DNA from: Spirochaetae bacterium HGW-Spirochaetae-3
GTDB taxonomy: Bacteria > Spirochaetota > Spirochaetia > Treponematales > UBA12059
DNA: 64,000 bases
Direction of reading: 5' to 3'
Assembly (NCBI GenBank): GCA_002839315.1
Contig: PGXV01000006.1
Coordinates: 1,176 to 65,175 of the forward strand
Shown here: positions 20,432-63,095 of the stretch, one piece after another
Layout of the letters: every line of letters starts with the position of its first letter
Numbering within the stretch: the first letter of the stretch is position 1
Position numbers and translations under genes: made by a program
Notes under the pieces: model-generated
The model's database searches: none
What the model was told of the DNA's origin: nothing
The model's input: the letters and a program-made list of their open reading frames with translations, nothing else

Positions 20432-22003
<1,572 letters not shown>

Positions 22004-22022
22004 GGGCGATACGATACGAGGA

Positions 22023-22072
22023 ACGGCCCGCGGTCGATGGAGGATCCATCGGCCGCGGGCCGTCTCTTTTTT
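22023..22072 (+). terminator. intrinsic terminator of the DEAD-box helicase gene
   Basis: ACGGCCCGCGG (22023-22033) pairs perfectly with CCGCGGGCCGT (22053-22063) around a loop with an inner GATGG/CCATC stem, then CTC and a run of seven T. The T-run ends where the opposite-strand tRNA-Leu ends. Confidence 0.92.
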
Positions 22073-22155
22073 TGCCGGGGGCCGGACTCGAACCGGTACG
22101 CCCTTACGGACAAGGGATTTTAAGTCCCTGGTGTCTACCATTCCACCACCCCGGC
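22073..22155 (-). tRNA. tRNA-Leu (anticodon TAA)
   Basis: Read on the minus strand, the 83-nt sequence folds as a class II tRNA: acceptor GCCGGGG/CCCCGGC with discriminator A, D-arm with TGGTAGAC, anticodon arm AGGGA-CTTAAAA-TCCCT giving anticodon TAA, a short variable arm, and T-arm CCGG-TTCGAGT-CCGG. CCA is not encoded. The 5' acceptor strand is also the end of the last unit of an upstream hairpin repeat array. Confidence 0.95.
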
Positions 22156-22228
22156 GGGTGAGCCGGGGAAAACCCCGGCGGGTGAGCCGGGGAAAACCCC
22201 GGCGGGTGAGCCGGGGAAAACCCCGGCG
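22149..22228. repeat. 24-bp tandem repeat of hairpin units in the tRNA-Leu leader
   Basis: Three exact 24-bp units (22149-22172, 22173-22196, 22197-22220) plus a partial fourth. Each unit is CCCCGGC-GGGTGA-GCCGGGG followed by AAAA on the plus strand. The first seven bases of unit one are the complement of the tRNA 5' acceptor strand. In the tRNA transcript this gives alternating GCCGGGG and CCCCGGC segments separated by TTTT or TCACCC. Confidence 0.95.
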
Positions 22229-22242
22229 GATTACAGTCGCGC

Positions 22243-22271
22243 ATGATAGCCGGGCTCCATTCCGGAGTCAA
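22243..22271 (-). promoter_or_regulatory. promoter of tRNA-Leu
   Basis: On the minus strand TTGACT (22266-22271), a 17-base spacer and TATCAT (22243-22248). Transcription would start near 22236 and run through the three hairpin repeats before entering the tRNA at 22155. Confidence 0.7.
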
Positions 22272-22311
22272 GGTTAGTATGTCCCGGTAATGTAACCGAA
22301 CCTCAAAATAC

Positions 22312-22340
22312 TTGCTTGTACGGCGTTCGAGACGTATAGT
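22312..22340 (+). promoter_or_regulatory. promoter of the receiver/Crp gene pair
   Basis: TTGCTT (22312-22317), 17 bases, TATAGT (22335-22340), followed by about 65 bases of leader to the ATG at 22408. Confidence 0.5.
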
Positions 22341-22407
22341 ATCGTAGTGTTTGGGCGTTCTGGATGCTCCGATTACGACTATCCGTATAACATTGAGGTT
22401 ATTATTA

Positions 22408-22776
22408 ATGAAAACCGTTCTAATCATCGATGATGAACCCTTGATGCGCGAGACTACGACCATGATGCTCGAAAGAGCCGGTTACAAGTGCCTGAGCGCG
22501 GCTTCGGCGGACGAGGGCGTGACGATGATGGAAGCCAATCAGGTAGCCGTCGCATTGGTCGATGTCGTATTGCCCGGCAAGAACGGCCTGGAGCTGGCCA
22601 TAGAGCTTAACCAGAAATGGCCCGCGACGCCTATCGTGCTGATGTCGGGGCGCGTTTCGACCGAGGCCGATTCCATAAGGAATTTTAGCGGGCATTTCGG
22701 TATCAAGGGCTCCATCTCGAAGCCGTTCACCATGGAACAGCTCCTGGGAGCGGTCGCAGACGCCATCGCCGAGTGA
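22408..22776 (+). CDS. CheY-like single-domain response regulator
   Basis: 122 residues consisting only of a receiver domain: acidic pair in IIDDEP (residues 7-9), phospho-acceptor Asp in VALVDVVLPGKNG near residue 53, Ser in VLMSGR near 81, and Lys in SISKPF near 107. There is no output domain, so it must act through a partner. It lies four bases before the Crp/Fnr-type regulator gene, suggesting the two act in one pathway. The ATG at 22408 has GAGG nine bases upstream; the frame is open further but the receiver begins here. Confidence 0.9.
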   Translation: MKTVLIIDDEPLMRETTTMMLERAGYKCLSAASADEGVTMMEANQVAVALVDVVLPGKNGLELAIELNQKWPATPIVLMSGRVSTEADSIRNFSGHFGIKGSISKPFTMEQLLGAVADAIAE

Positions 22777-40137: not shown

Positions 40138-43127
40138 CGCCGCTGCTCGTTACGTCTACGTATTCGTTTCACTTCGGTACCGCCTCTCCCGCCGAGCTAG
40201 CGCGCAGGGCCGCGGGGCTGGGCTACGACGCGCTGGGCCTTGCGGACCGCGACTCCGTACACGGCGTCCCGACCTTCATCGAGGCCTGCGAGGCGGAAGG
40301 TATACGGCCGATCATAGGCGTCGAGCTGAGTTGCTCTCACGGCGGCCGGGCCCTCCTCGTAGCGCTCGACGGCGCCGGTTTCTCCCGTATATGCCGGCTG
40401 CTCGACGCGCGCCGGGAGCCCGGCTTCGACGCCCGCGCCGAGCTGCTCCGCGACTCGGTCGGCCTCGCCGTCGCTACCGACGATCCCGTCTTGCTCGGGG
40501 CCGAGGACGCCACGGAGTTCTACGCGCTGCTAGCGCCGGGCAATCGGCCGTCGTGGCGCCGACTCCTCGCCAGCGGGCGCCGGCCGCTCGCCGTCGGGGA
40601 GGCCCGCTTCCTCGATGCCGGCGATCGGGCGCTCCAGCGCCTATTGGTCGCCGTCGGGAGCGGCCGGACGGTCGCCGACGTGCGCGACGCCGAACTGTCC
40701 GGCCCGGACGCCGTGCTCGTCGGCCCCGGCGCGTTCGAGGCCGCCTACGCCGCCGCTCCCGGGGCGCTTGACGAGAACCGGGCGCTCGCGGCGCGCATAT
40801 CGTTCCGATCCCTGTTCTCCGGTTTCGTCTTTCCCCGTTATGGCGCGGCGCACGACGATGCGGCGCACGACGATGCGGTGCACGACGATGCGGTGCACGA
40901 CGATGCGGTGCACGACGATGCGGCGACCATCCTGCGGCGGTTCGTATACGAAGGCGCGACGCGCCGCTACGCGACCGTCGACGACCGCGTCCGTGAACGC
41001 ATAGAGTACGAGCTGGGCATCATCGAAGAAAAAGGCTTTTCCGACTATTTCCTCGTCGTGCGGGATATAGTCCGCAAGGCGTCGCGGACATGCGGACGCG
41101 GGAGCGCCGCCGCGAGCGTCGTGTCGTACGCCCTGGGTATAACCGACGTCGACCCTATAAGGCACGGCCTGTATTTCGAGCGCTTCCTCAACCCCGGGCG
41201 CACGGATCCGCCTGACATAGACGTCGACTTCGCGTGGGACGAGCGCGACGCGCTGCTCGCGTCCGTGATAGCCGACTACGGCGAGGAGCGGGCCGCCCGC
41301 GTATCGAACCACGTATGCTTCCAGCCGCGCTCCGCGCTACGGGAGACCGCGCGCGCCTACGGTATGCCGGACGGCGAGATAGCCGCTTTCGAGCGGAACG
41401 CCGCTCTCGGGAAAAACGCCGATCCGGACGGCGACTGGCGGGACGTCTCGCGTCTCGCGGCCAGGATCGTCGGCTTTCCCCGACATCTCGGCGTCCACTC
41501 GGGCGGCGTCATACTGGTACCCGACCGCCTGTCCGGCCGGGTACCGATAGAGCGTTCGGGCTCGGGTATACGCGTGACCGCGTGGGACAAGGAGGGCGTC
41601 GAGGCGGCCGGCCTCGTCAAGATCGACCTGCTCGGTAACCGCTCTCTCGCCGTCGTCCGGGACGCGCTCGCCAATATTCGTGATAACGGCGAGCCTCTGG
41701 ACGAGGCGTCGTGGCGCCCGATAGACGACCCGGCCACCGTCGAGCTGCTCGCGCGCGGCGACACGATGGGCGTGTTCTACGTCGAGTCGCCGGCGATGCG
41801 GCTCCTGCAGAAGAAGACCGGCCGGGGAGACTTCGAGCATCTGGTTATCCACTCGTCGATCATACGGCCCGCGGCCAACCGCTACATAAACGACTATATA
41901 GACCGCCTGAACGGTAAGCCGTTCAAGCCGCTCCACCCGCTTATAGGCGACCTGCTGTCGGAGAGCTACGGCATCATGTGCTACCAGGAGGACGTCTGCA
42001 AGGTGGCCGTGGCCCTCGCCGGGTTCACGACGTCCGAGGCCGACGGGGTACGCAAGGTCCTGTCGAAGAAGGACGCCCCCGAGCGCCTCGCCTCGTACGC
42101 GGAACGCTTCCGCGACGGAGCCAGGGCGAAGGGCGTCGACGACGCGACGATAGCCGAAGTGTGGGCCATGATCGGATCGTTCTCCGGCTATTCCTTCGTC
42201 AAGGCGCACTCGGCGAGCTACGCGATGCTGTCGTTCCGTTCCGCCTATTTGAGGCGCCACCATCCCGCCGAGTTTATGGCGGCCGTCATCTCCAATCGCG
42301 GCGGATACTACTCGACGCTCGCCTACGTCAGCGAGGCGCGGCGCATGGGGCTTTCCGTCCTGCCTCCCGACGTGAACGCGAGCGCGGTGCGGTGCCGGGG
42401 CCGCGGGGCCGGGATACGCTTCGGTTTCGGGATGATAGGCTCGCTCGGCCAGGCGTGCGCTTCGGCGCTGGTATCCGAGAGGAGCGAGCGCGGGCCGTAT
42501 CGCTCGGTGGATGACCTCGCCCGCAGGGTGCGCCTCGATCGCGGCGACGCGGAGGCCCTGGCCGGCTCTGGCGCCCTCGACTCGTTGTCGCCCGAGCTAC
42601 CGCGCGCCCGCAAGCTGATGCGGCTCCTGTCGGCCCAGGCCGATCGGGAGGGTTTGCCTGCCGCGCAGGGAGAGCTGTTCGCGGCCGAGGATCCGCAGCG
42701 GGAAAGGGGCGAGCCCCGACGGACGGAGGCCCCGGATACAACGGGCGGCGTCAGGCGGCGGCTGGAAGCCGAGATGCGCTATCTGGGGACGACGCTCTCG
42801 TGCCACCCGCTCGCGCTATGGCCCAAGGCCCTGGCCGCGCGGCGCTCGCTCGGTCGCGACCTGCCGTTCCTCGCCGGGCGCCGCGTCGACCTCGTGGGTC
42901 TTCCCATAATAGCCAAGTCCGTGATGACCGCGGGAGGGCAGGCTATGGAGTTCGTCTCTTTCGAGGACGAGACGGCCCTCTACGAGACCGTGCTCTTCCC
43001 CGAGGCCTACGCCCGATTCCGGCGCCTGCTCTACGGGAGCGGGCCGCTCCTGCTCCGCGGCCTCGTTGAGGAGGACCGGGGAGCGGTCACGGTGACGCTG
43101 GAGGAAGTGTCGACGGTCGGAGGGTAG
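40131..43127 (+). CDS. DnaE2-like DNA polymerase III alpha homologue
   Basis: 998 residues from GTG 40131, with GGAGGGG eight bases upstream, overlapping the preceding stop. An N-terminal PHP domain has a degenerate metal-site start (T-S-T-Y-S rather than a His motif). The C-family polymerase core follows: CGRGSAAASVVSYALGI near residue 325, catalytic Asp pair in PDIDVDFAWDERD near 360, and third Asp in KIDLLGNRSLAVV near 500. HHH and OB-fold regions complete it. The length and partner gene fit error-prone DnaE2 rather than the replicative DnaE. Five 15-bp repeats encode an acidic His/Asp stretch between the PHP and palm domains. Confidence 0.9.
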   Translation: MVTPLLVTSTYSFHFGTASPAELARRAAGLGYDALGLADRDSVHGVPTFIEACEAEGIRPIIGVELSCSHGGRALLVALDGAGFSRICRLLDARREPGFDARAELLRDSVGLAVATDDPVLLGAEDATEFYALLAPGNRPSWRRLLASGRRPLAVGEARFLDAGDRALQRLLVAVGSGRTVADVRDAELSGPDAVLVGPGAFEAAYAAAPGALDENRALAARISFRSLFSGFVFPRYGAAHDDAAHDDAVHDDAVHDDAVHDDAATILRRFVYEGATRRYATVDDRVRERIEYELGIIEEKGFSDYFLVVRDIVRKASRTCGRGSAAASVVSYALGITDVDPIRHGLYFERFLNPGRTDPPDIDVDFAWDERDALLASVIADYGEERAARVSNHVCFQPRSALRETARAYGMPDGEIAAFERNAALGKNADPDGDWRDVSRLAARIVGFPRHLGVHSGGVILVPDRLSGRVPIERSGSGIRVTAWDKEGVEAAGLVKIDLLGNRSLAVVRDALANIRDNGEPLDEASWRPIDDPATVELLARGDTMGVFYVESPAMRLLQKKTGRGDFEHLVIHSSIIRPAANRYINDYIDRLNGKPFKPLHPLIGDLLSESYGIMCYQEDVCKVAVALAGFTTSEADGVRKVLSKKDAPERLASYAERFRDGARAKGVDDATIAEVWAMIGSFSGYSFVKAHSASYAMLSFRSAYLRRHHPAEFMAAVISNRGGYYSTLAYVSEARRMGLSVLPPDVNASAVRCRGRGAGIRFGFGMIGSLGQACASALVSERSERGPYRSVDDLARRVRLDRGDAEALAGSGALDSLSPELPRARKLMRLLSAQADREGLPAAQGELFAAEDPQRERGEPRRTEAPDTTGGVRRRLEAEMRYLGTTLSCHPLALWPKALAARRSLGRDLPFLAGRRVDLVGLPIIAKSVMTAGGQAMEFVSFEDETALYETVLFPEAYARFRRLLYGSGPLLLRGLVEEDRGAVTVTLEEVSTVGG
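40851..40925 (+). repeat. five 15-bp in-frame tandem repeats in the DnaE2-like gene
   Basis: Units of the form GCACGACGATGCGGT (last base C or T) at 40851, 40866, 40881, 40896 and 40911 encode repeated HDDA[VA]. The repeats lie at the boundary between the PHP and polymerase domains, where a change in number would leave the frame intact. Confidence 0.95.
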
Positions 43128-60356: not shown

Positions 60357-60809
60357 TCAACCATCCTGTTTTCGGAGCGAAAAAGGAAATTCCGAATCGT
60401 CGCCTTATAGTAAATAATCAACCAGCAACTTCCTGGACGAATCGAGGCGATGCCGGACTGTTTACTTAATCTATCACCGAACGGGTCTGAAGTGTAGCGG
60501 GATTGTGCCTATGCGTACGCCAATTCTCTCTATAGGCGACCCTCTAGGTAAAAAAGTCCCCCGGATCGGGCGCCCGCACCGGAGAAGCTTCGACGGCGTC
60601 ACCTTCTCGCTGGCACGAAGGTCGACCGCCGGGGCTTTAGCAAGGGCGATCCGGAAGGGGTTCCTCCAAGGCTACGACCGCGCTCGCCGGAAAGCCGATG
60701 ACGAGCAATCAGTCTATCCTCGCCTTGAACGAGGCGAGCGTGAGCCCGCCTCGCTCGCTGACGCGCGCGTCCCTGCGCGCTTTTCGCCGCTGCCACGGCG
60801 CGCTCGCTG

Positions 60810-60830
60810 CGGTTCGAATCCGTCCAGCCC
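60810..60830 (+). repeat. inverted 21-base copy of the tRNA-Pro 3' end
   Basis: The plus strand carries CGGTTCGAATCCGTCCAGCC plus one C, identical to the T-loop and acceptor strand of the minus-strand tRNA-Pro (60882-60902). There is no tRNA 5' half for it. It may be an inverted attachment-site remnant or an inversion product. Confidence 0.75.
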
Positions 60831-60873: not shown

Positions 60874-60879
60874 ATAAAG

Positions 60880-60952
60880 TCGGGCTGGACGGATTCGAAC
60901 CGTCGATCTCTTGGTCCCGAACCAAGCGCGCTAGCCACTGCGCTACAGCCCG
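60880..60952 (-). tRNA. tRNA-Pro (anticodon CGG)
   Basis: The minus-strand sequence folds as a tRNA: acceptor CGGGCTG/CAGCCCG with discriminator A, anticodon arm CTTGG-TTCGGGA-CCAAG giving anticodon CGG, T-arm GACGG-TTCGAAT-CCGTC. CCA is not encoded. Its 5' end directly abuts the eight-T run of the upstream terminator. Confidence 0.95.
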
Positions 60953-62776: not shown

Positions 62777-63095
62777 ATGCCGAACTATCGCACGTAGAGG
62801 GCCGGCTTGCAATATCGCCATCCATGATCGCCATCCATGGCGTTCCCGTCCGTGGAGCGGACGGGCCGTCCCGAGGCCGTGCATCCATGCGCGGCGCCAT
62901 CCATGCGCGCCGTCCATGGCGTACCCGTCCGCTGGAGCGGACGGGCCGAGCTGTGGGCGCGCATCCATGCGCGCCATCCATGGCGTGCCCGTCCGGTGAG
63001 GCGGCCTGCTCCAACCGGGCCTCGTCCGGGGCGCCGAGGCGGATAGCCCGGTCCCCGCGCATAGCGCGGGGACGCGCCCTAAGAAGGAATCTCCG
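62777..63095. repeat. array of degenerate hairpin-forming repeats
   Basis: The region 62815-63000 repeats the 7-mer ATCCATG six times and the hairpin CCCGTCCG-TGGAG-CGGACGGG (62845-62865), again as CCCGTCCGC-TGGA-GCGGACGGG (62924-62945), with a broken third copy at 62988. A perfect GGCGCGCAT-CC-ATGCGCGCC lies at 62956-62975. A separate hairpin GTCCCCGCGC-ATA-GCGCGGGGAC (63051-63073) follows the tdh gene on the minus strand without a U-tract. No gene is called here. Confidence 0.75.

Follow-up and report, generated by a model that had tools for sequence, protein, structure and literature searches.

Why would the transcribed leader of a transfer RNA (tRNA) gene contain several perfect copies of the tRNA's own acceptor strand, alternating with their complement? 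This question is raised by the tRNA-Leu(TAA) gene of Spirochaetae bacterium HGW-Spirochaetae-3, which lies in a 64,000-nucleotide (nt) stretch of contig PGXV01000006.1, here called the window. An earlier note on this DNA had offered two answers, a folding switch on a single tRNA or a harmless slippage array. Of these the slippage array fits best, and we see no sign of switching. The element is probably a lineage-specific palindromic array of 24-nt units, tolerated in the transcribed leader of a tRNA-Leu(UAA) gene that is itself ordinary and constitutively promoted. A recently expanded array fits the evidence better than a proven control switch does.

The repeat array and its tRNA gene

The tRNA-Leu(TAA) gene occupies positions 22073..22155 on the minus strand (ARAGORN; Rfam RF00005, 50.8 bits). 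Its acceptor 5′ strand is GCCGGGG (22155-22149), and CCA is not encoded. Leu(TAA) is represented by this single gene among 43 tRNA hits in a 3.88-Mb assembly of 98% completeness. Immediately upstream, on the same strand, stand three identical head-to-tail units of the form GCCGGGG-TTTT-CCCCGGC-TCACCC: the promoter-side unit 1 (22204..22227), unit 2 (22180..22203) and unit 3 (22156..22179), which adjoins the tRNA. Read along the minus strand, GCCGGGG and CCCCGGC thus alternate three times before the tRNA's own GCCGGGG is reached, in exact 24-nt units, as the earlier note had described. Tandem Repeats Finder reports a period of 24, 3.4 copies and a 100% match, with the repeat extending 10 nt inside the tRNA gene. 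The 31-mer GCCGGGGTTTTCCCCGGCTCACCCGCCGGGG, which spans one unit and the next, has 3 sites in the window when two mismatches are allowed and none in 100 dinucleotide shuffles; chance origin of the three-unit array is excluded. Elsewhere in the genome the 18-nt hairpin has no exact or one-mismatch site and one site with two mismatches. A genome-wide repeat family was rejected, since none was found elsewhere.

The array is expected to be part of the tRNA transcript. The only sigma-70-like site within 21950-22500 is TTGACT-17 nt-TATCAT (22243..22271, minus strand), the promoter that had been proposed earlier. In the alignment of five same-genus species (A1; CTTGAC at −35), the −35 TTGAC and the −10 CGGCTATCAT are invariant, and because both hexamers are conserved in this way the site is very probably the true promoter of tRNA-Leu(TAA). 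Between the −10 box and the array lie 15 unique nt (22228..22242, minus strand), the predicted transcription start region. The −10 box and the tRNA are 87 nt apart, or 15 nt once the 72-nt array is subtracted; for most tRNAs of the same genome that have a recognized promoter, the interval is 8-22 nt. As the distance is normal without the 72 nt, the array is an insertion into what is otherwise an ordinary leader. In the other tRNA leaders examined in the genome, direct and inverted acceptor copies were never both present near the tRNA, and a search of the window against Rfam returned three tRNAs only, with no known leader family (T-box or other).

Distribution among relatives

To describe the distribution we refer to the genome under study, with its three-unit array, as G000. 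A pattern search of one genome per species, covering 84,980 species, returned 54 stretches, most of them coding sequence or a Sphingomonas repeat and a handful tRNA-Leu genes. The sole match carrying the array was G007, 'Spirochaetes bacterium bin_251' (contig JAIFMD010000154.1), which belongs to the same genus. A general class of tRNA-Leu leaders with an acceptor complement was considered and rejected: most of the 54 hits are not tRNAs, and the other tRNA-Leu matches are isolated and chance-like. Matches in phage and plasmid collections were confined to the tRNA body, with none to the array, and a mobile origin was rejected on that ground.

The G007 locus (L113) is orthologous, as marked by the response-regulator gene; the adenylate cyclase, the helicase (82% protein identity) and the response regulator are all shared. 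Its two units are GCCGGGG-TCTT-CCCCGGC-AGCCCC and TCCGGGG-TTTT-CCCCGAC-ATCCCT, the latter followed by the tRNA. Among same-genus genomes with an intact locus, G007 alone has the array besides G000; G003, G004, G005 and G006 have short, unrelated leaders and no array, and none was found in any of the remaining family genomes searched. Unit number is therefore 3 in G000, 2 in G007 and 0 in G003-G006, with identical units only in G000, which reads as the pattern of a tandem repeat that is turning over. The suggestion that the units were freshly duplicated agrees with this comparison of three identical copies against two diverged ones in a sister species.

Relative to the G000 consensus, the G007 units have changed at 2 of 28 stem positions versus 8 of 20 loop and spacer positions (Fisher p = 0.010). 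In both species the hairpin nearest the promoter has all 7 bp of its stem intact, and in unit 2 of G007 two of the seven stem pairs are gone, uncompensated. Covariation supporting both folds was not found in the two species available, the stem changes in unit 2 of G007 being ones that break pairs.

A separate observation concerns a more distant relative, G041, whose tRNA-Leu(TAA) locus (L009) has the perfect palindrome GGAAGCCGGGATATCATCCCGGCTTCC in its leader or promoter. The palindrome contains the first 8 nt of that tRNA, GCCGGGAT, together with their complement, and so is another acceptor-strand copy.

Folding models of the precursor

The precursor was folded with nearest-neighbor secondary-structure models, using Turner 2004 parameters for the unit-number series. 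The native acceptor stem has a probability of 0.98 with no units; for one to five units the values are 0.43, 0.72, 0.46, 0.60 and 0.44, respectively. When four energy sets and two dangle settings were compared, the odd/even pattern recurred in most parameter sets. The native share at three units is fragile: about 0.46 in the Turner series, it runs from 0.09 to 0.87 depending on energy set and dangles.

We expected at first a clearly dominant native fold. In the nearest-neighbor models that expectation is wrong, owing to an acceptor swap: the tRNA 3′ strand is paired by an upstream GCCGGGG and the tRNA 5′ strand is held by a CCCCGGC, the cloverleaf body being otherwise intact. The best native and best swapped folds of G000, at −89.0 and −89.2 kcal/mol, are mutually exclusive and only 0.2 kcal/mol apart. 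The earlier note had proposed two registers of hairpins, one of which would capture the tRNA 5′ strand and block the acceptor stem. Mutually exclusive, nearly isoenergetic registers are indeed predicted, and capture does compete; what had been overlooked is the swap, through which the 3′ strand need not stay open since an upstream GCCGGGG can pair with it. In the G007 model the swapped fold is favored by 4.0 kcal/mol, with a capture helix of 9 bp. In the other relatives with a recognizable promoter, the native probability is nearly equal with and without the leader, mostly 0.87-0.98, the exceptions being L027 (0.41), L009 (0.69) and L020 (0.53, with or without leader).

These balances respond strongly to extra stability of the native tRNA. 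Granting the native fold a bonus of 2 kcal/mol raises its share to 0.94 in G000 and 0.56 in G007; with 4 kcal/mol the shares are 0.98 and 0.95. Tertiary structure in tRNAs is commonly thought to contribute more than 2 kcal/mol. When growing G000 transcripts were folded at equilibrium, the leader was predicted to hold tRNA nt 2-4 in at most 4% of the ensemble, from the point at which 13-15 nt of the tRNA are present until the 3′ strand emerges, because the spacer TCACCC pairs the start of the tRNA around nt 5-9 instead. Passing between the swapped and the native fold along a direct path means crossing a barrier of 19 kcal/mol, an upper bound. Leader pairing at or near the RNase P cleavage site is likewise predicted. 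The models allow a folding trap; they do not predict a switch.

A repeat array probably tolerated in the leader

How might such an array have come about? The first 7 nt of the tRNA could have been copied in inverted orientation alongside the gene, in the manner of a quasi-palindrome or template switch. Template switching, the one-step reverse-complement copying of a nearby strand, has been documented as an origin of perfect hairpins in RNA genes (PMC8794818); unlike those, the hairpin here would also have been amplified in tandem, and what it copies is the start (7 nt) of the neighboring tRNA. The unit would then have duplicated in tandem, made possible by direct repeats of GCCGGGGT that lie 24 nt from each other, and been homogenized. 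A mutational origin gains in plausibility because copying of tRNA ends is common in the family: in a scan of tRNA surroundings in G000, G004 and G007, tRNA genes often had duplicated pieces of themselves alongside.

In the transcript each CCCCGGC follows its own GCCGGGG, and the units would accordingly form self-contained 7-bp hairpins. The tRNA acceptor strand would pair with its own 3′ end, aided by the tertiary structure of the tRNA, and RNase P would presumably take off leader and hairpins together. A balanced unit should fold on itself and normally spare the tRNA; a half unit would not. This balance of the units may explain why stems drift more slowly than spacers. We infer that the array has no dedicated function.

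The array may nonetheless lower the efficiency of tRNA processing somewhat. A mild cost is plausible because leader nucleotides in natural pre-tRNAs can pair at or near the RNase P cleavage site, altering the rate and specificity of cleavage (PMC9433436). The modeled leader pairing resembles such anti-determinant leaders in its location, to which the array adds several exact copies of the acceptor strand and its complement, able to replace the acceptor strand itself. Shutting off tRNA-Leu(UAA) would be costly, since UUA, though rare (0.96 per 1000 codons), occurs in 12 of the 41 open reading frames of the window. The locus recalls bldA, the UUA-reading tRNA-Leu of Streptomyces (PMC2000904), as a single tRNA gene for a codon rare in a GC-rich genome. 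Unlike the bldA case, UUA in the spirochete window is not confined to a few non-essential genes, and the tRNA is unlikely to be dispensable; bldA-like codon control was rejected because UUA is too widespread.

Some of the evidence weighs against a tolerated array without function. That stems have changed less than loops and spacers between G000 and G007 hints at constraint, although homogenization with the tRNA strand would give the same pattern. The array has been kept in two clearly diverged species, as judged by their helicases, despite its predicted folding cost, and in the G007 model the swapped fold, with its 9-bp capture helix, is the preferred one. A pure nuisance might perhaps have disappeared.

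Alternative explanations

It is rather unlikely, in our estimate, that the array is a functional leader element, whose stacked hairpins would protect or mark the 5′ end of the precursor (as an entry point or block for RNase III or RNase E) and aid orderly maturation with no switching. The superior conservation of the stems and the intact promoter-proximal hairpin in both species speak for such a role. However, other species of the genus make the same tRNA with no array in its leader, and the second hairpin of G007 has decayed with no compensating change.

The folding switch would have part of the tRNA-Leu(UAA) precursor adopt the acceptor swap, so that RNase P fails or miscuts and the number and parity of units set the tRNA yield. 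We regard it as unlikely. The fall in native probability on adding units, with its odd/even pattern, speaks for it; so does the height of the direct-path barrier, which would make a trap long-lived, and so do the still stronger swap retained in the sister species G007 and the fact that this is the sole UUA-reading tRNA gene found. Yet the native share depends on the parameter set and reaches at least 0.94 in G000 with the smaller native bonus, and the order of synthesis in G000 favors self-contained hairpins. Moreover, there is no ligand domain or signal sensor, no terminator, no covariation and no Rfam family, and nearly all relatives do without an array. A special form of this idea, that slippage by whole 24-nt units shifts the share of the acceptor swap, odd and even numbers differing, would amount to heritable and reversible tuning of the only UUA-reading tRNA, that is, phase variation on a tRNA gene. 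We hold it to be very unlikely.

An element acting at the DNA level, such as an array of protein-binding palindromes separating the tRNA gene from the divergent response-regulator gene, is suggested by the perfect palindromic arms and their intergenic position, but seems highly improbable: the interval between the two promoters does not contain the array, which is found downstream of the tRNA promoter, further copies are missing from the genome, and the match to the tRNA's own acceptor strand is left unexplained. Transcription attenuation, with CCCCGGC-TCACCC-GCCGGGG plus TTTT as a weak terminator and GCCGGGG-TTTT-CCCCGGC as antiterminator, is hardly credible even though four T residues follow each upstream hairpin of the terminator register, since the T run is only four long, a terminator scan shows no minus-strand terminator there, and the antiterminator hairpin is always made first, leaving the terminator register no kinetic chance in the absence of an upstream competitor.

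tRNA-derived copies elsewhere in the family

The scan of tRNA surroundings also brought to light other tRNA-derived sequences, separate from the tRNA-Leu array. Many tRNAs have, beyond their terminators, a structured element of about 140 nt that begins with an inverted copy and ends with a direct copy of the last ~20 nt of the tRNA concerned, around a conserved GC-rich core (..GCGCCGAGCGATAGCGAGGAAGAGCGCGCA..). In the window such an element stands at 60691-60828 on the minus strand, behind tRNA-Pro(CGG) (60879-60952); others are at L042:1619-1762, L059:1626-1762, L132:415-553, L159:1171-1314 and L203:167-309. With a covariance model, 12 are found in the G000 genome at E <= 0.1; judged by coordinates, 11 of these adjoin a tRNA. 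Among 23 family genomes, 22 have copies. The element matches no family in Rfam and is apparently undescribed so far. With ends that look tailored to each tRNA, it resembles a guide or a tRNA-targeting mini-element.

Nested arrangements form a second group. At tRNA-Val(CAC) of G007 (L151, 1200-1900), three 5′ halves (nt 1-26) precede the intact tRNA and 3′ halves follow it; the linkers on either side are complementary, placing the tRNA on long stems whose sequences vary by species with pairing kept (compared with L051 of G000 and L184 of G004). tRNA-Pro(GGG) of G000 (L125, 380-700) is similarly nested, with a 5′-half copy at −52, complementary leader and trailer, and a 3′-half copy at +70 to +100; its G007 counterpart (L160) has the downstream part of this layout only. 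A nested-tRNA origin like that at tRNA-Val(CAC) was rejected for tRNA-Leu(TAA), which has neither leader/trailer complementarity nor 3′ fragments. tRNA-Cys(GCA) of G000 (L055, 1395-1507) is preceded, 70 nt upstream, by a second copy of its promoter region and opening 7 nt, and a GC-rich hairpin separates the two copies. Finally, a short motif, TTCGCC-GAA-GGCGAA followed by CACTACAATACNATTCC, recurs within or beside the tRNA-derived fragments, where it looks like an insertion (L151 downstream of the tRNA; L142, L176 and L046).

Neighboring features of the window

Past the 3′ end of tRNA-Leu(TAA) lies a 19-bp inverted repeat (22023..22063). Together with a T run on the plus strand it makes up the terminator for the convergent DEAD-box helicase gene (20432-22003), and this terminator abuts the tRNA. 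On the other side, the divergent response-regulator gene occupies 22409..22776 on the plus strand, its start being approximate. Two further tandem repeats are present in the window, one at 40845-40925 (15 bp x 5.4) and one at 62816-62973 (80 bp x 2.0) with CATCCATG motifs.

Significance

Literature searches on pre-tRNA folding switches and on nested tRNA genes gave no direct precedent. The repeats of the Escherichia coli tyrT operon reportedly lie downstream of the tRNA, measure about 178 bp and copy its 3′ end. In both cases tandem repeats adjoin a tRNA gene and incorporate part of the tRNA; unlike the tyrT repeats, the present array is upstream, has a 24-bp unit and copies the 5′ end in both orientations.

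If neutral, the array would be a clear-cut example of a hairpin minisatellite that a tRNA gene has seeded out of its own acceptor strand; it would also provide a natural set of substrates, with 0, 2 and 3 units, on how far tRNA folding and RNase P tolerate perfect acceptor decoys. If instead it affects yield, it would represent repeat-number control acting on a tRNA, which we did not find described in the papers searched.
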